Assembly: GCA_029568995.1 (NCBI GenBank)
Contig: JAKPYU010000528.1
Location: forward strand, 1 to 38,336
Length of the DNA: 38,336 nt
Direction of reading: 5' to 3'
From: Candidatus Omnitrophota bacterium
GTDB taxonomy: Bacteria; Hinthialibacterota; Hinthialibacteria; Hinthialibacterales; JAKPRU01
Part shown: one piece after another, positions 15,464 to 29,945 of the stretch
Layout of the letters: the number at the start of each line of letters is the position of its first letter
Numbering within the stretch: the stretch's first letter is position 1
Program-made: the position numbers and the translations under genes
The notes under the pieces: generated by a model
The model's database searches: none
What the model saw: only the letters and a program-made list of their open reading frames with translations
Told to the model about the DNA's origin: nothing

Positions 15464-17470
15464 TCACAACGGCTGCAAACCAAGGCGCTGCTCGGCAGCG
15501 TGCAGAACCGCGCCCAGCGTCTCTTTGTAAGACATCCCGATCAATTTGGCCATTTTCGCCAGGTGTCCGTCCCAGCACCATCCCGGATTCGGGTTCACTT
15601 CCAGCAATTTCGGAATTCCTTCCGCATTCAAACGCCAATCCAGCCGGGCATAATCCCGGCACTCCAATCGCTCAAACAAACGCAACGACGATGCGATCAG
15701 GAATTTCTCCGTCTCTTCCGAAAGACTCGCCGGGATGGACTGAAGACGCGCGTAAGGCGAATTCGGGTCCCATTTTGCCTCATAACCGCAGATCCTCGGT
15801 AATTCCGGCGGTAAAGATGAATAATCTTCCTCGATGATCGGCAACACAATGTAAGAATCCGGGGGATTCCCGATGATTCCCACACTCAGGTCTTTGCCGG
15901 TCAGGAACTCCTCCACGAGAACCGGCTTGTCGTAACCGAATTTCTCCCGAATGTCCGTGATGGCGTTCACCAGGTCTTCCGCGTTGTTGGCGATACTCTT
16001 CTGGGTAATCCCGAAGCTGGAATCCCCGAAATTGGGCTTTACAATCGCAGGAAATCCAAAGGAGATCTCCGAACTGGTATCCTCCGGTTTTACCAGCCAG
16101 GCTTCCGGAACGGGGATATCCATTTCCTTTGCCAATCCACGTGTCAACGACTTGTCATAGCAGATCCCCAGGCATTGCGGCCCGGCACCCGAATAGGGAA
16201 TTCCAAGAATCTCGAGCAGGGAAGGCACGTGCAGCTCATACCGCGCATTGTTGCAGAATCCCTCATCGCACAAATTCATAACAAAATCCGCTTTCCCTTT
16301 CAGATTCCTCATCTCGTTCAGAAGCGTATCGTGGTTATCCAGGTAGTGAAACCGATAGTCGGTCAATTCCCGCAACGCCCCTTTCATCTGGTCCAGAGTG
16401 TAAAAGTCATCGTCATCGAATACATTCTGTGGCTTGAGCGTGTCGATCTTGCGAGGATCGCCTGTAATCACGGCCACATTCCGAATGGCCTTCTTGGACC
16501 GCTTTTTGGGAGTCCATTCTTTCTTGACGACGGCGGTCAGAATGATTCGCCGCTTCATCATGCCGAGGTCCTGATTTCGGCGTGAGTCCGGCGAATAGGA
16601 CCCATGCAAAGCAAAATCCGAGAATCCCACCGTCTTCAACAATTCTTCCAGGGATCCCGGTGTGTAAAGTCGCTCTGCGTAGAAATGATCCGCAATCACT
16701 CCCTTCTTGATGTGGGTAACCACCTCTCGCGAAATGATCCGTTGCCCATCCAGGGAGAGCGAGCGCTCTCGACAGACAAACAGATCTTTGTCAATCCATT
16801 CCCAGGATCGCGGATCGAAATTCTCCTTGAGATATTCCCCGTCGGCCACATCCATTAAAAGGCGCCCCCAGGGTTTCAACACGCGAAACACCTCGCTCAG
16901 GACTTTCAGGTCTTCCTGGACGGTTTCAAAAAAACCGAAACTATTCCCCAGGATCATCACGACATCGAACGTGTCTGAAGGATACGGCAACTTGCGTGCA
17001 TCGCCCTCCCGAAAACGGGTTGTCAGGCCGATTTTTCTCGCATCCTGCCGCGCTTTCCGGATCAAATAATGCGAACGGTCCAACCCTTCCACGTTGATGA
17101 ATCCACGCCGGGCCATCTCCAGGGAATGACGACCCTGGCCGCAGCAGAGATCCAGAACCCGGTCCTCCGATGACAAGTCCAGAATGCCGGTGAAGAATCC
17201 GATCTCGGTGCTGGTGATCTGGCTGTCATCTACCAGGTCTGCGTCCGTCTTGATGTACAGTGAATTGAAAATGCGCCGCCACCAGTCGGGCTGCACATAC
17301 TCCTCTATATTGGCAACGGACCCCAGGCATTTTGAGGAGCCGTTGCCGTTCCCATTGCCGCCTCTCTTGCGAAGAGCAGATTCAGCGAGGGTATTGCCTG
17401 TATTCTGCATCTGTCCAATGTTCCTTTCCGATTTGATCGATCTGTCGCCTCTTTCGGCTAAGACATTCAT
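15464..17470 (-). CDS. SAM methyltransferase fused to a D-Ala-D-Ala-ligase-like ATP-grasp enzyme
   Basis: A 668-residue two-domain protein. Residues about 55-315 form a class I SAM-dependent methyltransferase: motif I VLDLCCGQGRHS at 105-116, EGLDRS at 128-133, EGDARKLPY at 155-163, VLKPWGRLLMDVADG at 197-211. Residues about 330-668 form a D-alanine-D-alanine ligase-like ATP-grasp enzyme: PYSGAGPQCLGICYDKSLT at 425-443, IVKPNFG with K478, VEEFLTGKDLSVGI at 519-532, YARLDWR at 607-613, and the metal site LLEVNPNPGW at 622-631. The ligase joins a carboxylate to an amine with ATP; the fused methyltransferase may modify the substrate or product. The first 50 residues are low-complexity (GGNGNGNGSS). 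The frame stays open without a normal start codon to 17584, so the true start is uncertain. The neighbouring GT4 hints at envelope or small-molecule work. The pathway is unknown. Confidence 0.85.
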   Translation of the reverse strand: MNVLAERGDRSIKSERNIGQMQNTGNTLAESALRKRGGNGNGNGSSKCLGSVANIEEYVQPDWWRRIFNSLYIKTDADLVDDSQITSTEIGFFTGILDLSSEDRVLDLCCGQGRHSLEMARRGFINVEGLDRSHYLIRKARQDARKIGLTTRFREGDARKLPYPSDTFDVVMILGNSFGFFETVQEDLKVLSEVFRVLKPWGRLLMDVADGEYLKENFDPRSWEWIDKDLFVCRERSLSLDGQRIISREVVTHIKKGVIADHFYAERLYTPGSLEELLKTVGFSDFALHGSYSPDSRRNQDLGMMKRRIILTAVVKKEWTPKKRSKKAIRNVAVITGDPRKIDTLKPQNVFDDDDFYTLDQMKGALRELTDYRFHYLDNHDTLLNEMRNLKGKADFVMNLCDEGFCNNARYELHVPSLLEILGIPYSGAGPQCLGICYDKSLTRGLAKEMDIPVPEAWLVKPEDTSSEISFGFPAIVKPNFGDSSFGITQKSIANNAEDLVNAITDIREKFGYDKPVLVEEFLTGKDLSVGIIGNPPDSYIVLPIIEEDYSSLPPELPRICGYEAKWDPNSPYARLQSIPASLSEETEKFLIASSLRLFERLECRDYARLDWRLNAEGIPKLLEVNPNPGWCWDGHLAKMAKLIGMSYKETLGAVLHAAEQRLGLQPL

Positions 17471-20321: not shown

Positions 20322-20716
20322 ATGCTCTCAAAAAAATCGGTATATGCCCTTCGTGCTCTTCTGGCTCTCCCCAGGAATATGGCCAAGGCCCTTTTTTGAT
20401 TTCAGTTTTGGCAGAAAAAGAGAGAATCCCCAGGAAATTCCTTGAATTAATTCTTCTCGAATTGAGAAATGGGGGGGGCCTGCTTGGAAAAAAAGGAAAA
20501 GACGGTCCACTTGCCCCTGTCCTGTGTGTAAGCGAGACCTCATATCATAAATATGATCGATGCCAGAATGAGAGGACCCGTGGAATCAAGATCGGGATGA
20601 AAGAGGTCCGGGATGCCATTGCCGGGATTCTCGATCATAAGACTTTGGCGGATCTTCTCGGTTTGGTCGATCTCGCCACAAAGATGGACATCGAACGAAC
20701 CAGGCAGCTGATGTGA
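20322..20716 (+). pseudogene. Rrf2-family Fe-S regulator, broken by frameshift and internal deletion
   Basis: The ATG at 20322 opens MLSKKSVYALRALLALPRN, a clear Rrf2 N-terminus, but the frame ends in TGA at 20398-20400 right after a run of six T. The next frame (from about 20396) continues the family: ISVLAEKERIPRKFLELILL. At GLLGKKGK it jumps directly to DGPLAPVLCVSET, so the usual GGGY...PEEI-type wing of some 20 residues is missing. Of the three Cys normally holding the Fe-S cluster, two remain (in LCVSET and DRCQN); the third position is R in ERTRGIK. The conserved KEVRDAIAGILDHKTLADLL end is intact. The gene lies directly upstream of hoxE in the same direction, so the functional ancestor probably sensed redox or Fe-S status for the hydrogenase. 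A homopolymer sequencing error could explain the frameshift, but not the deletion or the lost Cys. Confidence 0.75.
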
Positions 20717-20852
20717 TTGATTTTTGTGTAATCTATAAGATGCATTCAAAAATATTCTGTTTCGGTCAAGACCATCGATCTCAACTCCAATCCCAACAAG
20801 AACAGAAATCTGCGTTTCTTCCATTTCACCGCAGTAGACAGGGAGTTTCGTG
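20717..20852 (+). other. Leader of the hox operon
   Basis: The 136 bases between the Rrf2 remnant and hoxE hold a ribosome site (AGGGAG about eight bases before the hoxE ATG). No convincing promoter with correct spacing is seen: TTGATT and TATAAG are only 11 bases apart. The operon may therefore be read from the promoters upstream of the Rrf2 remnant. Confidence 0.35.
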
Positions 20853-21398
20853 ATGCCCGAATCCGCAATAGATCCCAAAGTGGATCGCGCTTTTCTCGAT
20901 AACCTGATTACCCAGTGCCGTCACAAACCTGGAGCACTCCTGGCCATCCTGGAAAGCGCCCAGGATCACCACCCGCGCAAGTATCTTACGAAAGAGGCTC
21001 TGGAGTATATCGGCAAGGAGATCGGGGTCTCCCGATCCCAAATCTACAATGTCGTAACCTTTTACTCTTTCTTTAACCTGACCCCCCAGGGTGAACACTG
21101 CATCACGATCTGCCGGGGAACCGCCTGTCACGCCAGGGGATCGAAAAAGATACTCGATTTCGTGAAGGACATGCTCCAGCTCCAGGAAACCAATTCCGGC
21201 TATGCGGATAAATTGTGCCTTACCACTCCGGACAACCGATTCACCGTCCGAACGGTGGCCTGTTTCGGCCAGTGCGCCTTGGCGCCCGTCGTTTCCGTGG
21301 ATGAACGTATTTATGGCTATATGACTTGCCAGAGAATGCGAGAGATCGTCGAAAAGTTGGACCACGAAGCAGTGGAGCCGGTCCCGTTGTTTATCTGA
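20853..21398 (+). CDS. hoxE: NiFe-hydrogenase diaphorase subunit HoxE (NuoE-like)
   Basis: A 181-residue NuoE/HydC-type protein that carries one [2Fe-2S] cluster in a thioredoxin-like fold. The ligands are C87 and C92 (CRGTAC) and C137 and C141 (CFGQC). The helical N-terminus (YIGKEIGVSRSQIYNVVTFYSFF) is conserved in the family. A GTG one codon upstream is possible; the ATG at 20853 has the better ribosome site distance. It is the first gene of a five-gene run hoxE-F-U-Y-H in the order known from cyanobacterial bidirectional hydrogenases. It passes electrons between the flavin subunit and the Fe-S chain in the cytoplasm. Confidence 0.92.
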   Translation: MPESAIDPKVDRAFLDNLITQCRHKPGALLAILESAQDHHPRKYLTKEALEYIGKEIGVSRSQIYNVVTFYSFFNLTPQGEHCITICRGTACHARGSKKILDFVKDMLQLQETNSGYADKLCLTTPDNRFTVRTVACFGQCALAPVVSVDERIYGYMTCQRMREIVEKLDHEAVEPVPLFI

Positions 21399-21460: not shown

Positions 21461-24400
21461 ATGAGCGATATGCGAATCAATGATCTGAATATGCTCCATG
21501 TTGTTCAGGAAGCGGGGATGAGTAAACTCCTGCCCGGTAAACCCCGCATCGCCGTCGGGATGGGCACGTGCGGTATCGGCAACGGTGCACAGGAGGTCTA
21601 CGATCTCTTCTATCACGAACTGCACGATCAGGGAGTTGATGCCTATCTGACAAAGGTGGGTTGTTTCGGATTCTGCGCGGAGGAGCCGCTGGTCAATGTA
21701 TTCGTACAGGGCTATCCCCTGCTGATTCTCCACCGGATTAATACCGATGATGTCAAAGGCATTGTTGACCTGGTCGCGGAGAGAAGACCACCGGTCAACA
21801 AGATCCTTTGCAAAATTGAGGAATGGAATCACCTGACCGAACGCGTTACCTACGGGCATGGAATCCCCGACGTTCCGACATGGGATGAAATCCCGTTCTA
21901 TAAGTATCAAAAGAAAATCGTCCTTCGAAACTGCGGGCTGACCAATCCCGAGGAAATTGATGAATACATCGGGATCGGTGGATACCAGGCACTCTACAAA
22001 GCCCTGTATGAGATGTCCCCAGATCAAGTCCTGGATGAAATCAAAAAGTCCAAGTTGCGGGGCCGAGGTGGGGCTGGGTATCCCACGGGGATCAAATGGG
22101 AACTCCTGAAACGTGCAAAAGGCGACCGGAAATATCTGGTCTGCAACGCGGACGAGGGGGATCCAGGCGCCTACATGAATCGTAATGAAATCGAGGGCGA
22201 TCCGCACATGATGCTGGAGGGGATGATCATCGGCGCGTATGCCACCGGCGCAACCGAGGGGGTGATCTACATGCGGGCGGAATATCCCCTTGCGGTGGAA
22301 CGGCTGAAACGCGCGATCGCTCAGGCACGCAACCATGGTCTTCTCGGCGAGGGGATCATGGGAACCCCGCTCTCCTTTGAGGTACACGTGGTGGAAGGCG
22401 CAGGGGCTTTTGTCTGCGGGGAAGAGACCGCCCTGATGGCCTCCATCGAGGGAAACGCCGGCAGGCCGCGACCCCGACCGCCATTCCCTGCCGACAAGGG
22501 GCTTTGGGGTTGCCCGACCAATATCAACAATGTCGAAACCTGGTTCAATATCCCTATCATCATTGCCAAAGGTGCCTGGTGGTTCGCTCAAACGGGCAAT
22601 GCCACCAGCCCCGGCACGAAAGTCTTTTCCCTAGTCGGCAAGATCAAGAATACCGGCCTGGTGGAACTTCCCCTGGGATCGCCTCTTCATACCATTGTCT
22701 ACTCAATCGGCGAGGGAACCGGCACAAACCACAAGGTGAAAGCCGTCCAGACCGGCGGCCCCTCCGGAGGATGTATCCCCGCTGAACTATTCAACACTCC
22801 CGTGGATTACGAATCTCTCGCCTCTCTCCGCTCCATCATGGGATCCGGTGGGATGGTCGTATTGGACGATGAAAACTGCATGGTGGACGTCGCTCGGTAC
22901 TTCCTGGAGTTCACTCATTCCGAATCATGCGGCAAGTGCATTCCCTGTCGAGTCGGTTTAGATCACGCCTTGCGCATCCTGACGGATGTCACGGAAGGCA
23001 AGGCTGGCATCAATGATCTCGAAGAACTGGGCAATCTTGGCCGGGTCATTCGCGATACCGCTCTTTGCGGTCTCGGACAAACCGGTCCCAATCCGGTTCT
23101 GACCACATTGAGACATTTCCGTCAGGAATACGAAGAACACATCCTGCAGGGCCGATGCCGGGCCGGGATCTGCGAGCATCTGTTTCTCTCTCCCTGTGAG
23201 AACAGCTGCCCGCTCCACATGAACATTCCGGTATTCCTTCAGCTGTTGAAAGAAAACCGCCTGGAGGAGGCCTGCGAACTGATCCAACTCGATAATCCCT
23301 TGCCTGCTTCCACAGGCCGAGTCTGCGAACACCCCTGCGAGGTCCGATGCAGGCGCAAGGATATCGACAACCCGGTCTCGATTCGGGAAGTTCACCGCTT
23401 TCTGGCTGACCTGATGTTCCGCAATGGGATGCGGAACATCGTGCTCGACAGGCTCCTGGCGCGGAAATTCCCTCCCACCGGAAAGTCGATCGCCGTGGTC
23501 GGTGCCGGACCCGCCGGATTGACGGTGGCCTTCTATCTCTGCCTTCTCGGACATGACGTAACGGTCTACGAAGCCTTTCCTGAAGCGGGCGGGATGTTGA
23601 AATACGCCTTGCCCGAATATCGATTGCCGAATTCCGTTGTGGACCGGGAAATTCAATTCATCGAAAACTTGGGCGTTCGCTTCGTTTTCAACACACGGAT
23701 CGGCGCAGACAAAAAACTCCTTGAACTCGACCAGGAATACGACATCACCTTTCTCTCGATTGGAACCTGGATCGGTATAACAACCGGCTTGCCCGGCGAG
23801 CATCTGGAGGGTGTGGTTCATGGCCTCACTTGCCTGGAAGACGTCTCTACCGAAAGGAAATTCGATCTGGGGAATAACGTTGTTGTGATCGGCGGCGGGA
23901 ACGTGGCCATCGACGCGGCTCGTACCTCCATCCGCAGAGGAGCCGATGTCACCGTGGTCTATCGGCGGGAAGAAGCGGATATGCCTGCAATTCACGAAGA
24001 GGTGGAGGAAGCTAAGGCGGAGGGTGTCAAGTTTGTCTTTTTGGCCGTACCGAAAAGCATCATCGAAGGTACCCCCGGAAAAGTGAAAGGCATTGAACTG
24101 ATCAAAACCCGGATTGAGGGATATGAACCGTCCGGACGCCGCAAGCAGGTTCCGACAGGCGAGGCATTTGCCATCCCCTGCGATACCGTCATTCTGGCCA
24201 TCGGCGAGCGAGTGGATTCCCAGTTCATTCGAGAATCCAAAATCGAAGTCTCGGAGGGGGGGACTGTCAATGCCAATCCATTCGGTTTCGAGACGAGTTC
24301 ACAAAATATATTCGCTGGTGGAGATGCCGTTACCGGGGCCTCGAATGTCTCGGATGCCATGGCAACCGGCAAAAGAGCCGCGGCCTTCATTGACGAACGG

Positions 24401-24619
24401 CTTACAGGACAGAAACGATTCAAACAACTCTGGCCCTCCTATCCCATCCATAACGATGTTCCACTCGAGCCGCAGGGAGGCGAACGGAACGCCGTTCGGA
24501 TTATTCCGGTTTCAGAACGGCAGGCCAACTTCAATGAGGTCTCTCTGGGACTGGTGGAGGAGCAGGCACAAAAAGAAGCCATTCGCTGTCTGCGATGCGA
24601 TGTCAAGGAGGCCTCCTGA
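21461..24619 (+). CDS. hoxF: HoxF/NuoF-type NADH-flavin subunit fused to a GltD/NfnB-like FAD module
   Basis: At 1052 residues this is roughly double a normal HoxF or NuoF. Residues 25-120 are a thioredoxin-like Fe-S domain with C37, C68 and C72 (the usual fourth Cys is absent). Residues 130-560 are the NADH/FMN subunit: GRGGAGYPTGIKWE (201-214), CNADEGDPGAYMNR (228-241), an SLBB part, and the [4Fe-4S] ligands C490, C493, C496 and C536. Residues about 565-1052 are a glutamate-synthase small-subunit-like module. It has two Cys-rich motifs (C566, C571, C579, C583; C622, C626, C630), FAD site GAGPAG (681-686), a second dinucleotide site GGGNVA (811-816) with arginines (RRG, VYRREEADMP) typical of NADPH binding, and FAGGDA (951-956). 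The end has another CxxC (C1043, C1046). GAGGA precedes the ATG. No stop or frameshift interrupts the join, so it is a true fusion as sequenced. Expected role: exchange electrons with NAD(H), and perhaps NADP(H), for the hydrogenase. Confidence 0.93.
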   Translation: MSDMRINDLNMLHVVQEAGMSKLLPGKPRIAVGMGTCGIGNGAQEVYDLFYHELHDQGVDAYLTKVGCFGFCAEEPLVNVFVQGYPLLILHRINTDDVKGIVDLVAERRPPVNKILCKIEEWNHLTERVTYGHGIPDVPTWDEIPFYKYQKKIVLRNCGLTNPEEIDEYIGIGGYQALYKALYEMSPDQVLDEIKKSKLRGRGGAGYPTGIKWELLKRAKGDRKYLVCNADEGDPGAYMNRNEIEGDPHMMLEGMIIGAYATGATEGVIYMRAEYPLAVERLKRAIAQARNHGLLGEGIMGTPLSFEVHVVEGAGAFVCGEETALMASIEGNAGRPRPRPPFPADKGLWGCPTNINNVETWFNIPIIIAKGAWWFAQTGNATSPGTKVFSLVGKIKNTGLVELPLGSPLHTIVYSIGEGTGTNHKVKAVQTGGPSGGCIPAELFNTPVDYESLASLRSIMGSGGMVVLDDENCMVDVARYFLEFTHSESCGKCIPCRVGLDHALRILTDVTEGKAGINDLEELGNLGRVIRDTALCGLGQTGPNPVLTTLRHFRQEYEEHILQGRCRAGICEHLFLSPCENSCPLHMNIPVFLQLLKENRLEEACELIQLDNPLPASTGRVCEHPCEVRCRRKDIDNPVSIREVHRFLADLMFRNGMRNIVLDRLLARKFPPTGKSIAVVGAGPAGLTVAFYLCLLGHDVTVYEAFPEAGGMLKYALPEYRLPNSVVDREIQFIENLGVRFVFNTRIGADKKLLELDQEYDITFLSIGTWIGITTGLPGEHLEGVVHGLTCLEDVSTERKFDLGNNVVVIGGGNVAIDAARTSIRRGADVTVVYRREEADMPAIHEEVEEAKAEGVKFVFLAVPKSIIEGTPGKVKGIELIKTRIEGYEPSGRRKQVPTGEAFAIPCDTVILAIGERVDSQFIRESKIEVSEGGTVNANPFGFETSSQNIFAGGDAVTGASNVSDAMATGKRAAAFIDERLTGQKRFKQLWPSYPIHNDVPLEPQGGERNAVRIIPVSERQANFNEVSLGLVEEQAQKEAIRCLRCDVKEAS

Positions 24620-24757: not shown

Positions 24758-25468
24758 ATGAGCAAAGAATTCACAATCAGAATCAATGGCAGGGATCTTT
24801 CGGCCCAGGAAGGAGAAACAGTTCTCGATGTGGCGCGGAGATCCGACATCTATATTCCCTCACTGTGCCATTTAAAGGGACTATCGCCGGTCGGTGCCTG
24901 CCGTCTCTGTCTGGTCGAGGTGAAAGGTGTGTCTCGCCTGGTTCCTTCCTGCACAACCTATGTGCATGAGGGGCTGGACGTGATTACCGATTCGGAGCGC
25001 ATACAGAAATGCAGAATGGTGATTCTCCAACTCCTGTTCTCGGAGCGGAACCACACCTGTTCGGTCTGTGTCTCCAACGGCCATTGCGAGCTGCAGGCCA
25101 TCGCCGAAAACCTCGGAATGAACTATGTCCGGTATCCCTATCGTTTCCCGGCGCTGGCGGTTGATGCGTCTCATGAAAAATACGCCATCGACCACAACCG
25201 CTGCATTCTTTGCACCCGCTGTGTTCGGGCCTGCCAGGAGGTGGAAGGCGCACACACGCTGGAGATCATCGGACGCGGTGTTCATTCGCTTGTCCTGGCC
25301 GATCTCGATGGGCTGTGGGGGGAATCCCAAACCTGTACCAGCTGCGGCAAATGCGTTCAGGTTTGCCCTACAGGCGCACTATTCGAAAAAGGAAAAGCGG
25401 TAGGCCAGATGAAAAAACGTGATGAGTTTCTGCCCTACCTGATGTCCATGCGGAGTCTGAACCGATGA
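24758..25468 (+). CDS. hoxU: NiFe-hydrogenase diaphorase Fe-S subunit HoxU
   Basis: A 236-residue Fe-S protein, a short relative of NuoG and HydA. The N-terminal [2Fe-2S] ferredoxin fold uses C37, C48, C51 and C65. A His-Cys3 [4Fe-4S] site follows (H98, C101, C104, C110). Two classical [4Fe-4S] motifs close the protein: C149, C152, C155, C159 and C193, C196, C199, C203. These wire the flavin subunit to the hydrogenase. The length is that of HoxU, without the extra domains of bifurcating HydA. A TTG four codons upstream is less likely than the ATG. Its stop overlaps the hoxY start (ATGA), indicating coupled translation. Confidence 0.94.
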   Translation: MSKEFTIRINGRDLSAQEGETVLDVARRSDIYIPSLCHLKGLSPVGACRLCLVEVKGVSRLVPSCTTYVHEGLDVITDSERIQKCRMVILQLLFSERNHTCSVCVSNGHCELQAIAENLGMNYVRYPYRFPALAVDASHEKYAIDHNRCILCTRCVRACQEVEGAHTLEIIGRGVHSLVLADLDGLWGESQTCTSCGKCVQVCPTGALFEKGKAVGQMKKRDEFLPYLMSMRSLNR

Positions 25469-25992
25469 GAAAAATACGACTGGCCACTGTTTGGCTCGAT
25501 GGGTGTTCAGGATGTCACATGTCGCTCCTGGACGTGGATGAGCGAATTATTGAGTTCGCCAACCGGATCGAGATTCTCTGCAGCCCCCTGGTCGACCGGA
25601 AGGAATTCCCGGATGCCGTAGATTTGACACTGGTGGAGGGGGCCATCGCCAGTGAGGAAGATCTGCAGAAAATTCGCCTCATCCGAGAACGGTCAAAAGT
25701 CTTGGTTGCGTTGGGGGATTGTGCTGTCACCGGCAACATCTCCGGTATGCGCAACTCGTACCCGGTGAACGCAATCCTCCAGCGCGCCTATGTTGAAAAT
25801 GCAAAAACACGCAACGGATTCCCACAGCAAGGCCTTCCCGTGCTGCTTCAACGATGCCGACCGCTCCATGAAGTCGTTCCCGTCGATCTCCACGTGCCGG
25901 GATGTCCTCCGAGAGCCGACCTGATCTACGCGGTTCTGAAGGCCATCCTGGAGGGACATCTTCCCCAGAACATCCATACCCGTTTCGGATGA
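25465..25992 (+). CDS. hoxY: NiFe-hydrogenase small subunit HoxY
   Basis: A 175-residue small subunit of a cytoplasmic group 3 NiFe hydrogenase. It holds the proximal [4Fe-4S] cluster through C14 and C17 (DGCSGCHMS), C86 (LGDCAVTGN) and C147 (VPGCPPRAD). It has no twin-arginine signal and no C-terminal ferredoxin-like domain, as in other Hox enzymes. The start overlaps the hoxU stop and its stop lies 12 bases before hoxH, so translation is coupled. Confidence 0.95.
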   Translation: MRKIRLATVWLDGCSGCHMSLLDVDERIIEFANRIEILCSPLVDRKEFPDAVDLTLVEGAIASEEDLQKIRLIRERSKVLVALGDCAVTGNISGMRNSYPVNAILQRAYVENAKTRNGFPQQGLPVLLQRCRPLHEVVPVDLHVPGCPPRADLIYAVLKAILEGHLPQNIHTRFG

Positions 25993-26004
25993 TAGGAATG
26001 AACC

Positions 26005-27426
26005 ATGACCAGACAGATTGTCATTGATCCCATAACCCGCGTCGAAGGACACGGCAAAGTGACCCTGCATCTTGACGATTCCGGTGAGGTCCGGGATGCC
26101 CGGTTTCACGTTACCCAATTTCGTGGATTCGAGAAGTTCTGCGAAGGGCGGCCTTTTTCCGAGATGCCATCATTGACTGCCCGCATTTGCGGCATTTGCC
26201 CGGTCAGTCACATGCTGGCTTCCGCCAAAACCTGCGATGCTCTTCTGGCCGTTCAAGTCCCCAGGGCTGCACAAAGCCTGCGGAAGATCCTCAACCTGGC
26301 CCAATTACTTCAGTCCCATGCGCTGAGCTTTTTCCATCTCTCTTCCCCGGATCTTCTCCTGGGTATGGATTCCGATGTGGCGGAACGCAACGTATTCGGC
26401 GTGATTCGATCTCATCCGAGTCTGGCACGAAACGGTATCCGTTTGCGCCAGATCGGTCAGCAAATGATTGAGACTCTCGGCGCAAAGCGAATCCATTCCC
26501 CCTGGGTCATTCCGGGCGGCGTTGCCGGACCGCTTACCTCCGAGGATCGAGAAGCCCTTCTGGTTCTGATCCCGGAAGCCCTTTCCATCATTCAGGAAAC
26601 CATCGAGTGGTTCCATTCCGTTCTGAACCAATACACGGAGGAAATCCGCACATTCGGGAATTTCCCGACGCTGTTCCTGGCTCTCGTGGGCAACGATGGT
26701 AGCCTGGATCATTACGACGGTCAAATGCGGATGATTGATTCCGACGGCAATCGCCTTCTCGACCAGGTGGACCCGGCCCAATATGCGGATTACATCGAGG
26801 AATGGGTGGAGCCGGATTCCTATTTGAAATCTCCGTGCTATAAGCCCATGGGGTATCCCGACGGGATCTATCGCGTGGGAGCGCTGGCTCGCTTGAATGC
26901 GATTGATCGCTGCGGAACGCCTCGCGCGGATAAAGCCTGGAAAGAATTGCGCAAACTGGGCCAGGGGCCTCTGTTGAACTCGTTTCACTATCATTGCGCA
27001 CGGCTCGTGGAATCGCTGTACGCCATTGAACGGATCGAGGAAATTCTTCATGATCCCGCAATTCTCGACGACCGTGTCTGTGCCAAGGCTCAACCGAATA
27101 CCCTGGAGGGGATCGGTGCTATCGAAGCGCCACGTGGCACGCTCATCCACCACTACCGGATCGATAAAAACGGCCTGATGGTCTGGGCGAACCTGATTGT
27201 CGCCACCGGCCACAATAACCTCGCCATGAATCGCGGAATCCTGCAGGTAGCCAAAGAATACATCAAAGGCGACAAAATCTCCGAAGGGATGTTGAATCGC
27301 GTGGAAGCGGTCATTCGAAGTTTCGATCCCTGCCTGAGCTGTTCAACCCATGCACTTGGCCGGATGGGCCTGCGGATTCAACTGTTTGCACCGACCGGAG
27401 AATGCCTGGACGAGACGGTACGCTAG
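26005..27426 (+). CDS. hoxH: NiFe-hydrogenase large subunit HoxH
   Basis: This 473-residue catalytic subunit binds the NiFe(CN)2CO centre. The N-terminal motif [10 protein letters not shown] gives C62 and C65; the C-terminal motif DPCLSCSTH (441-449) gives C443 and C446. E14 in the RVEGH segment is the conserved acid. The 24 residues after H449 ([10 protein letters not shown]... to DETVR) form the peptide that a HoxW-type protease should remove on maturation. No such protease or hyp gene is in the window. The motifs and gene order fit group 3d (bidirectional NAD-linked) enzymes. The TAG stop is also the first three bases of a MITE-like terminal repeat, yet the protein has its normal length. 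Confidence 0.96.
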
Positions 27427-27848: not shown

Positions 27849-29945
27849 GTGGCATCCCAGACTTTCCTGGTTCTCTCAACGTCTCCAAGGGGTGAATGCC
27901 CTCCCAAATTCCTTTTCATTATCGGCTTGAGTGTTCTCTGGATTGTCTCATCGGAGCAAAATCTGTTCGCAGATTTCCCGTCACCCACGCCCACAGCAAC
28001 TCCAAGTCCTTCCCTCATAACCCCCTCACCGACCTCTTCCTGGACTGCGACAGCAACATGGAGCCATACGCCCTCTCGGACTCCGACTCCAACCGCCACC
28101 GTGACACAAACACGAACTCCCAGCCCTACGCTTTCATTTACACCAACTTCGACTTCCACCCCGACTCTGACACCGACTTTAACCCATACGCCGACCGGCA
28201 CTTATATACCAACTACCACCCCGACACCCAGCGCAACTCCATCGCACACCCCAACTCTCACTTTCACACCGACTGTGTCTCCAACGTCCACCCCGTCCAC
28301 TACATTTACGCCAACCATGACCCCGTCGCACACCCCAACCCCCACTTTCACGCCGACTGTGACCCCAACGTCCACTCCGTCAACTACTTCCACTCCAACC
28401 ATGACTCCATCGCATACCCCAACCCCCACTCTCACACCGACAGTGACCCCAACGTCCACCCCGTCCACGACGTCCACTCCGACGGTGACTCCATCACACA
28501 CATCAACTCCCACTGTCACCCCGACTCTGTCCCCAACATCCACCCCGTCCACTCTGTCCACACCAACACCCATCCCAACTCGGATTCCCCTCCAATTCGA
28601 ACCGGGACCACCCATTCCTGCATATTCCAGTTCCAGCGCCATGGCTATCGGAAGCCTGTCATTTGCACAGGAACCGGCCTTGGTTGTTGTCTCGGAAAGA
28701 TACCCCGGAGCGGCCTCCTACCTTGGAAAAGGAGATGGGTCCTTTCAGCAGATTCCGGTTCCGGAACCTTCGGGAAGATACGCGGACATCGCTTTTCTTG
28801 CCTCTGACTGGATCGCTTTAGCCGATGCAAATGCGGATCGAGTTCTCTTGTCTCACCACGACAAATCGAAGGGGTGGGGCATGGAAAACCGTCAAATCGC
28901 AGTCGATTTCCCCACATGGGTCTTCGGTGGTGATCTGGAGCCGGACGGGAAACCGGATCTGATCGTAGTAAGCCAGATCACCTGGATTATGACGGCCATT
29001 CCAGATGTTCTTGGAGATTCTCCGCGACAGATTGATTTTGAATTGCCGTATCGTCCCGTATGTGTGACCGTTGCAGGTTCCGATTCCCACCCCGGTGATG
29101 AGGTTCTTGTGAGCTTCGGAGTCCCCGCTGAGATACGGATCTACTCTCTTGGAGAATCAGGCTTTCTGGAAAAGAACCGTGTCGATCCCACTTCCGGTCT
29201 CGGACCGGGCGCTCATGTCACCGACTTTATTGTTGCCGATACGGATGGCGATCCTTATACCGACATCGCCGCGGTCAATTTCTTCGGTTGTGTGCAGATC
29301 TTCCACGGTTCCGGGGATGGGGCTTTCCAGCGGATGGAGCAGGCAAGCGTCCCTGCGCTTCCAAGGCAGATCGGAGTCGGCGATATGGATGGGGATGGAA
29401 TCGAGGATCTTGTAGTTACCAGTATTGGAATCGGCGCAACCGGTCGTGATGAAATTCTTATTCTGAGGCAGGATCCATGGACGGGCCTTCTCCCGCCGGA
29501 ACAGGTCGGAGAGGTTCCCGATCCCGCAGCCTTGGAGGTTCTGGACCTGGATCACGACAAGCGACCGGATCTGGTGGCCTTGAGCCGAGAGTCGGGTGAA
29601 ATCCGAGTCTTTCTGAATCGAACCCTGCCTCCCACGACTCATCCGCCAATCGTCGGCAAGATCCCGGATCTGCGACTCCTGAAAGGCGAATCTCTGATAA
29701 ATGCTTTCGATTTGGACAACTATGTTGTGGACCCGGACACGCCGCGAAACCGCCTCCATTGGTCTGTCCGGTCCTGGGGGAATTGCCCGAAGATCACGAT
29801 TCATCCTGACGAGGTCGTAAACTTGGATGCCCCTGTGGAGAGCGGAAAAACCGGCTACGCGCAGTTCATCGTGACCGATGGTCGCCACCGGGTCGCTCGA
29901 ACCATCCGAATCCACGTCTTTGACTCGGTTTCGGGGCGAGAATAG
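27849..29945 (+). CDS. Secreted Thr/Pro-repeat protein with VCBS/FG-GAP-like domain
   Basis: A 698-residue exported protein starting with GTG. A hydrophobic stretch (PPKFLFIIGLSVLWIVSS, residues about 18-35) serves as signal peptide. Residues about 43-247 are almost only Thr, Pro and Ser. Within them four 28-residue units begin at H133, H161, H189 and H217 (HTPTPTFTPTVTPTSTPSTT type). Residues about 255-640 form beta-propeller-like VCBS/FG-GAP repeats with calcium-type D-x-D-G motifs (DTDGDPYTDIAAV, GDMDGDGIEDLVV, DLDHDKRPDLVAL). The last 70 residues may be a small beta-sandwich (Ig/cadherin-like). The Thr/Pro region is probably a stiff, possibly glycosylated stalk carrying the propeller. Surface adhesion or binding is an inference. 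No anchor motif is visible. Confidence 0.8.
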   Translation: MASQTFLVLSTSPRGECPPKFLFIIGLSVLWIVSSEQNLFADFPSPTPTATPSPSLITPSPTSSWTATATWSHTPSRTPTPTATVTQTRTPSPTLSFTPTSTSTPTLTPTLTHTPTGTYIPTTTPTPSATPSHTPTLTFTPTVSPTSTPSTTFTPTMTPSHTPTPTFTPTVTPTSTPSTTSTPTMTPSHTPTPTLTPTVTPTSTPSTTSTPTVTPSHTSTPTVTPTLSPTSTPSTLSTPTPIPTRIPLQFEPGPPIPAYSSSSAMAIGSLSFAQEPALVVVSERYPGAASYLGKGDGSFQQIPVPEPSGRYADIAFLASDWIALADANADRVLLSHHDKSKGWGMENRQIAVDFPTWVFGGDLEPDGKPDLIVVSQITWIMTAIPDVLGDSPRQIDFELPYRPVCVTVAGSDSHPGDEVLVSFGVPAEIRIYSLGESGFLEKNRVDPTSGLGPGAHVTDFIVADTDGDPYTDIAAVNFFGCVQIFHGSGDGAFQRMEQASVPALPRQIGVGDMDGDGIEDLVVTSIGIGATGRDEILILRQDPWTGLLPPEQVGEVPDPAALEVLDLDHDKRPDLVALSRESGEIRVFLNRTLPPTTHPPIVGKIPDLRLLKGESLINAFDLDNYVVDPDTPRNRLHWSVRSWGNCPKITIHPDEVVNLDAPVESGKTGYAQFIVTDGRHRVARTIRIHVFDSVSGRE
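28245..28580 (+). repeat. Four 84-bp tandem repeats coding for the Thr/Pro stalk
   Basis: Four consecutive 84-bp units encode 28-residue Thr/Pro blocks within the VCBS-type protein gene. All three forward frames and parts of the reverse strand stay open through the repeats because the codons are nearly all ACx, CCx and TCx. The copy number is likely to vary between strains through slippage or recombination. Confidence 0.8.

Follow-up and report, generated by a model that had tools for sequence, protein, structure and literature searches.

Related hydrogenases and transhydrogenases

A constant, ferredoxin-using BfuBC core defines the Bfu family; NiFe-Bfu enzymes are found in Synergistetes and Halorhabdus, and the main text of the paper on the family mentions neither GltD nor Acidobacteria (PMC9304861). 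In the scheme for the bifurcating NiFe-HydABCSL of Acetomicrobium mobile, the low-potential branch runs from flavin mononucleotide (FMN) through clusters C1, B2, and B3/B4 to ferredoxin, and the B2 ligands are C438, C476 (or Thr), H525, C531, and C536 (PMC8880783). GltD modules occur in several settings. StnABC of Sporomusa ovata and Nfn-Bfu of Thermococcus sibiricus combine a HydBC core with a permuted GltD of the non-bifurcating type (PMC10482914, PMC9304861), and HydDB group A2 comprises GltD-linked [FeFe] enzymes without NuoF (PMC5037454). In a sub-type I [FeFe] BfuB of Hydrogenedentota, reported in 2024, B3/B4 is replaced by a DPD_II plus flavin adenine dinucleotide (FAD)/NAD(P) domain, suggested to be a second, FAD-based bifurcation center (PMC11406978). 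Here, we analyze hoxF::gltD (bfuB::gltD), a gene fusion in a [NiFe]-hydrogenase operon, on a 38,336-nucleotide stretch of a Candidatus Omnitrophota genome (the window; contig JAKPYU010000528.1, positions 1 to 38,336 of assembly GCA_029568995.1).

We propose that the operon encodes a bifurcating [NiFe]-hydrogenase of the HydABCSL/Bfu type, located in the cytoplasm, with a GltD module like that of StnC substituted for B3/B4, the part through which HydB passes electrons to ferredoxin; we put the probability of this reading, which draws on sequence comparison and structure prediction, at roughly 0.6. A sequence-only reading of the window had been unable to place the fusion. It can be placed, as the domain replacement is the one published in 2024 for the Hydrogenedentota BfuB. 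The iron-only counterpart is therefore already described, and the nickel-iron version appears to be new as far as the open-access literature shows: no description of a NiFe version of the B3/B4-to-GltD replacement was found there, subscription papers and preprints lying outside the search. Papers that mention HoxF and GltD together proved to be those on Stn or unrelated work.

A bifurcating-type HydB core joined to GltD

The fusion gene is a single open reading frame with an ATG start and no internal stops (Table 1). Pfam domains of both the NuoF and the GltD type fall on the one chain, far over their cut-offs: Complex1_51K (residues 194-365), NADH_4Fe-4S (476-560), Fer4_20/DPD domain II (571-655), and Pyr_redox_2 (676-970). 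The uninterrupted 1052-residue HoxF/HydB::GltD frame within an E-F-U-Y-H operon, as described in the sequence-only reading, is thus borne out. The chain divides into a NuoF/HydB half (29-575) and a complete GltD half (576-1047); alignments to PDB entries 9n5u_B, 7t2r_B, and 8oh5_B all stop at residue 575 or 576. The layout matches that given for sub-type I BfuB in PMC11406978, with DPD_II and FAD/NAD(P) domains at the C terminus where B3/B4 would be; the head is [FeFe] there and NiFe (U-Y-H) in the window.

An AlphaFold2 model of the fusion built from 67 sequences reached a mean predicted local distance difference test score of 92.4 and a predicted template modeling score (pTM) of 0.87. It replaced a first model from 14 sequences (pTM, 0.53), in which the HydB half was wrong by Foldseek. 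In the final model, the F half matches 9bov_B (root mean square deviation [rmsd], 1.6 Å; TMt, 0.97) and 7t2r_B (rmsd, 1.5 Å; TMt, 0.96), and the GltD half matches NADP(H)-bound NfnI (5jca_L; rmsd, 1.7 Å; TMt, 0.83).

Table 1. Features of the hoxF::gltD operon in the window. Residue numbers refer to the fusion protein.
Feature	Position	Strand	Description and basis
hoxE / hydC (bfuC)	20850..21398	+	182 aa; thioredoxin-like [2Fe-2S] subunit with cluster C1; PF01257, 1.5e-40
hoxF::gltD (bfuB::gltD) fusion	21461..24619	+	1052 aa in one frame; AlphaFold2 model
HydB/BfuB half, residues 29-575	21545..23185	+	N-terminal Trx-like, FMN/NADH, SLBB, B1 [4Fe-4S], and B2 parts; PDB alignments, Foldseek
B2 ligand region	22877..23173	+	C473, T511, H560, C566, C571, aligned with A. 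mobile C438, C476, H525, C531, C536
Junction	23174..23194	+	7-residue spacer linking C571 of B2 to C579, the first Fe-S ligand of GltD; B3/B4 tail gone
GltD half, residues 576-1047	23186..24601	+	Two predicted [4Fe-4S] clusters, FAD and NADP(H) Rossmann folds; StnC/NfnA matches, Foldseek 5jca_L
H645	23393..23395	+	Fourth-ligand position of the FAD-proximal cluster; alignment to StnC numbering
Second nucleotide-binding fold, residues 804-880	23870..24100	+	PF00070; YRR at 834-836
C-terminal segment, residues 1020-1047	24518..24601	+	ER..NF.EV..G...EQA..EA.RCLRC; alignment to NfnI and StnC
hoxU (truncated HydA)	24758..25468	+	[2Fe-2S] and [4Fe-4S] chain from hydrogenase to B1; NCBIfam HoxU; best PDB match 7t2r_A
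hoxY / hydS, NiFe small subunit	25465..25992	+	PF01058; NCBIfam VhuG best, below cut-off
hoxH / hydL, NiFe large subunit	26005..27426	+	PF00374; two motifs, one DPCLSCSTH

The best matches of residues 29-575 are the B subunit of T. sibiricus NfnABC, A. mobile NiFe-HydB (second-best), and StnB. Published residue criteria tell bifurcating from non-bifurcating beta subunits (PMC7311640; see also PMC9304861), and the window protein has the bifurcating-type residue at every position: A237, M239, F317, and GGPSG at 432-436. We compared 49 fusions with 60 unfused HydB-like proteins. One of the latter, most likely L019:3794-5374 to judge from its aberrant tail-less C terminus, deviates at each of these positions, so the residue test is able to fail. 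The B2 ligands C473, H560, C566, and C571 are present in all 49 fusions. The F core thus has the FMN/NADH site with B1, the diagnostic residues, and a B2 site with His and Cys that characterize the Bfu family; the C-terminal B3/B4 ferredoxin domain, which would complete a six-cluster BfuBC core, is missing, and GltD stands in its place. The earlier assignment of this half to a NuoF/HoxF FMN-NADH subunit is amended in that it is HydB/BfuB-like rather than Hox-like.

The junction separates the two kinds of protein. In most of the 60 unfused proteins, a tail of ∼57 residues comes after the B2 motif CxAGxC; its two [4Fe-4S] motifs, B3/B4, are the proposed route out to ferredoxin. The window protein reads C566-RAGI-C571-x7-C579-xxx-C583-P, and the spacing CxxxxC-x7-CxxxCP is the same across all fusions matched; in the HydB proteins listed, 11 to 12 residues precede the first tail Cys. 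Because B2 and the junction length are conserved in all fusions, the passage of electrons across the junction would seem to be under selection. In a third tail state, F ends 6 to 12 residues past the B2 cysteines (L153:4781-6517, L066:818-2485, and L154:8691-10340). Two of these tail-less proteins (L153 and L154) lie in U-Y-H operons and the other has a related HoxH on the same contig. With ferredoxin, GltD, or no tail at all on a common core, these proteins amount to a natural experiment on what bifurcation requires.

The GltD half resembles StnC

The GltD half matches the GltD domain of StnC and that of the Nfn-Bfu A subunit. C579, C583, C622, C626, and C630 are present in 49/49 fusions, and C1043, C1046, and the YRR motif in 47/49. 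The C-terminal segment that carries C1043 and C1046 has a counterpart (ER..F.EV..G...A..EA.RCLQC) that is N-terminal in NfnI (residues 16-48) and C-terminal in StnC (∼540-568). Since the segment with which NfnI starts sits at the C terminus here, the GltD half is circularly permuted in the manner of StnC, and C1043/C1046 probably complete the distal cluster together with C579/C583. A second nucleotide site had been noted from the sequence alone, and its YRR motif is shared with NADPH-binding StnC and NfnI.

The place of the module sets the window apart from StnABC and Nfn-Bfu, with which it shares the HydBC core, the permuted GltD, and the NADPH, NAD, and FMN core. In those enzymes, GltD lies inside the A subunit (StnC) at the mid-potential input, and the B subunit retains its ferredoxin domain. 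In the window, GltD is attached to the B subunit at the low-potential exit, HoxU has none, and H2 is the mid-potential couple.

The hydrogenase is not a classic Hox enzyme

The genes form a compact operon, E-F::GltD-U-Y-H, all on the + strand. Subunit set and gene order are those of group 3d HoxEFUYH, and HoxU (240 aa; start at TTG 24746 or, more likely, ATG 24758) passes NCBIfam NF005745 with 361 bits against a cut-off of 333. Searches against solved structures point elsewhere, with A. mobile NiFe-HydABCSL best or near-best for each hydrogenase part searched. HoxU scores 225 bits against A. mobile HydA and 133 bits against Hox; HoxH, whose placement rests on solved structures rather than on full HydDB classification, scores 549 bits against A. 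mobile HydL (7t2r_D, the best match) and 431 bits against Hox (5xf9_D), and its top NCBIfam model, VhuA, stays under the cut-off. HoxE has NCBIfam HoxE as its top model, yet below cut-off; with four visible Cys and PF01257, it corresponds to a BfuC carrying the C1 [2Fe-2S] cluster.

A classic group 3d Hox enzyme is disfavored by the solved-structure matches of HoxH, HoxU, and the F half. The F core differs from that of group 3d: it belongs to the HydB type of bifurcating enzymes, has the B2 ligands, and is joined to GltD. HoxH is nearer HydL. Because F, HoxH, and HoxU are nearest to A. mobile or HydB-type proteins and HoxH and HoxY fall below their NCBIfam cut-offs, "Hox" is a handy gene name and a poor family assignment; the Hox label of the sequence-only reading gives way to a place among bifurcating NiFe-HydABCSL/Bfu proteins. 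A. mobile NiFe-HydABCSL, the nearest solved relative of HoxH and HoxU, has the same FMN-B1-B2-C1 core (PMC8880783). Its HydB carries B3/B4 as a ferredoxin-like C-terminal domain, and its HydA has 692 aa, whereas the window has GltD and the shorter HoxU.

Proposed electron path and alternatives

H2 would be oxidized in HoxYH, and electrons would pass through the HoxY and HoxU clusters to B1 and FMN. One pair would leave FMN as a hydride to NAD+, the high-potential branch. In the low-potential branch, single electrons would move from FMN to the HoxE [2Fe-2S] cluster C1, the His/Cys-ligated B2, the two GltD [4Fe-4S] clusters, FAD, and finally NADP+. The net reaction would be 2 H2 + NAD+ + NADP+ -> NADH + NADPH + 2 H+, reversible, with NADP in the role of ferredoxin. 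Sequence comparison and the model show the architecture, the retained B2 and GltD ligands, the fixed junction spacing, the loss of the ferredoxin tail, and both folds; from these, we infer NADP specificity, the electron path, its direction, and strict coupling of both branches rather than mere connection. The earlier proposal that the enzyme may couple H2 to NADH as well as NADPH is plausible on this basis. The fuller claim, that soil Acidobacteriota and their relatives possess a ferredoxin-free bifurcating [NiFe]-hydrogenase whose low-potential branch feeds NADP+ via GltD, NADPH formation being driven by H2 at the cost of simultaneous NAD+ reduction, is tentative, and its chances are somewhat short of even.

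Several observations weigh against coupled bifurcation. An enzyme of S. wolfei without B3/B4 does not bifurcate, as cited in PMC11406978. The tail-less F proteins, which have neither GltD nor a ferredoxin domain, keep the bifurcating signature and the B2 ligands; therefore, the signature alone is no proof of a working low-potential branch. The standard potentials of NAD and NADP are nearly equal, so any gain hinges on in vivo ratios, and the genus has a PntB transhydrogenase, so NADPH could come by another route.

One alternative is a hydrogenase that uses both nucleotides without bifurcating: GltD would be a second port through which H2, NADH, and NADPH equilibrate without thermodynamic coupling. 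All redox parts for this are present and the ferredoxin domain is absent, the GltD of StnC is non-bifurcating (PMC10482914), and the tail-less siblings indicate that an F core need not have an exit. Strict conservation of the B2 ligands, of the bifurcating-type residues, and of the x7 junction is at odds with such a port, and uncoupled equilibration would waste the NADPH/NADP+ ratio of the cell. We regard this alternative as unlikely, and it is the one to be reckoned with first.

A second bifurcation center at the GltD FAD, working in the fashion of NfnB, has been proposed for the [FeFe] sub-type I BfuB (PMC11406978), and the GltD fold is near NfnI, with R721 equivalent to NfnB R201. NfnAB also shares the NADP site. 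The unusual fourth ligand of the FAD-proximal cluster is Lys170 in StnC, and bifurcating NfnB has Glu there (PMC10482914). At this position, 24 of the 49 fusions, the window clade, have His and the other 25 have Lys; Glu occurs in 0/49. In the GltD tree, a quick tree, fused GltDs stand apart from the stand-alone GltD/NfnB-like clade (Shimodaira-Hasegawa-like approximate likelihood ratio support, 98). His or Lys instead of Glu and the position in the tree speak against bifurcation at an FAD of the NfnB type. In StnC, a GltD of this kind is non-bifurcating (PMC10482914). In NfnAB, bifurcation at the NfnB FAD goes with Glu ligation of the cluster and with NfnA as partner; the window has neither, and no NfnA subunit or ferredoxin site was found in the operon. 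An FAD-based center is thus disfavored and quite improbable here, the evidence pointing instead to an NADP exit. The earlier description of a complete GltD module stands, with StnC-like in place of NfnB-like. The proximal-ligand position is His in the window clade. For sub-type I BfuB, the section of PMC11406978 consulted treats neither junction spacing nor circular permutation.

It is more doubtful still that the operon encodes an ordinary NAD-linked bidirectional Hox hydrogenase with GltD as a degenerate or purely structural passenger: HoxU exceeds its NCBIfam cut-off and the nested relative L153 does without GltD, but every GltD cofactor and nucleotide motif is kept across phyla, and HoxH and the F side go with HydABCSL, not Hox, among solved structures. 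An artifact of assembly or gene calling that merged two genes can be set aside, fragmented though the source assembly is (807 contigs), since the same 1052-aa frame is found in the same operon in two other genomes of the genus (G001 and G002; 95% identity), and ∼20 Acidobacteriota genomes have the fusion in the same operon.

Should bifurcation to NADP+ be correct, the HydBC core would not be bound to ferredoxin, and an NADP(H) module could take the place of its low-potential exit at a single fixed position, just behind B2. The C1-B2 route would become directly testable with a soluble acceptor that is easy to follow by spectroscopy, NADP+ (340 nm), in place of ferredoxin. It would also be explained how H2 could be turned into biosynthetic NADPH by Acidobacteriota that have a compact NiFe operon of five genes. 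In vivo potentials are given as -280 mV for NAD and -380 mV for NADP, with H2 at -414 mV at 1 atm (PMC9304861); with coupling, the H2 required for NADPH would fall from ∼7 kPa to ∼0.15 kPa (calculated for pH 7 and 25°C).

Distribution and evolution of the fusion

Full-length fusions (threshold, E ≤ 1e-245) were sought in samples of 299 Terriglobia, 396 Acidobacteriota, and 285 Omnitrophota genomes. They are present in ∼20 Terriglobia genomes (22 pass, including the unfused G195), in 56 Acidobacteriota genomes when all partners are counted, and in 25 Omnitrophota genomes. The Terriglobia (Acidobacteriota) fusions examined are ∼57-61% identical to the window protein and lie in E-F::GltD-U-Y-H operons; full-length relatives with the full operon occur at no fewer than 18 Terriglobia loci. 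Downstream of the Omnitrophota fusions examined (L018 and L185-L192; 56-59% identity) lies a HydA gene with [FeFe] motifs. Because the E-F::GltD unit is also found on an [FeFe] head, it seems to be a module independent of the hydrogenase head, and NiFe and [FeFe] heads have been swapped on one NAD/NADP unit. Fusions at ∼45% identity have as partners [FeFe] HydA (L019-L022 and L026; the one named host is Clostridiales bacterium 1_7_47_FAA, L022), complex I subunits (L012), or a protein with a glutamate synthase domain (L014).

HydB and GltD trees were quick LG+G4 inferences with many open forks, and starred branches alone were used. In the HydB-core tree, Omnitrophota, the window genus, and Terriglobia form a clade with support of 100. 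The tail-less F of Terriglobia genome G195 (L153) is nested in it among fused relatives, and GltD was apparently lost once there. This also bears on whether relatives with two separate genes would speak against a true fusion: the relatives carry the fused gene, and G195 looks like a loss. Phylogenies of each half, as suggested in the sequence-only reading, place the window fusion in this clade on the HydB side and its GltD outside the stand-alone clade. Fused and unfused proteins are scattered over the HydB tree, with 13 changes, at least 9 of them on starred branches, whereas the pattern on the GltD tree needs as few as 1 change. The trees fit one ancient fusion with later swaps or losses as well as several separate events. 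The window HoxH clusters with the HoxH proteins from unfused operons whose F lacks a tail (98/97) and not with those of fused Terriglobia operons; therefore, the F::GltD and Y-H modules have recombined.

Some fusion loci have unusual partners. The window genus has a second HydE-HydF::GltD pair (L014:8282-14754 [G000:C180] and L015). In the window's own genome (L014), it is followed by a 551-aa protein with the glutamate synthase domain PF01645 and preceded by genes for a histidine kinase and a sigma-54 response regulator; the set is possibly an NAD/NADP-coupled glutamate synthase-like enzyme. At L012:505-6268 (G034), HydB::GltD adjoins complex I genes (PF00507 and PF00346, with a NuoB-like frame between), which might be read as a complex I extended by an NADP-type arm. 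At L011:14952-16700 (G014), HydB::GltD is followed by a 582-aa protein that, by eye, joins a HoxU N terminus to an HdrA-like flavoprotein, a possible electron partner. A Balneolales locus (L028:3802-16822) has two adjacent NiFe sets, one HoxFUYH-like and the other comprising HydB::GltD, a small subunit fused to a ferredoxin, and a large subunit that is short at 431 aa. Tandem NiFe operons also occur at L135:2843-12685 (G215); one contains F::GltD, and the HoxH of the neighboring operon is nearer the window HoxH than is that of the fused operon itself.

Neighboring genes

Maturation protease PF01750 has no matches in the genome, with a model that also misses the Synechococcus elongatus control; HypD is present. 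Upstream of hoxE (20322-20716) lies a remnant of an Rrf2/IscR-type regulator, with PF02082 on its second part; because the frame is also broken in both genus relatives, it is an old pseudogene and not an error. Directly after hoxH, a frame on the + strand (27849-29945) encodes a long Pro/Thr/Ser repeat tract and then a repeat-rich C-terminal part, as judged by eye. On the - strand, a 668-aa protein (15464-17470) resembles, again by eye, a methyltransferase joined to a D-Ala-D-Ala ligase-like ATP-grasp domain.

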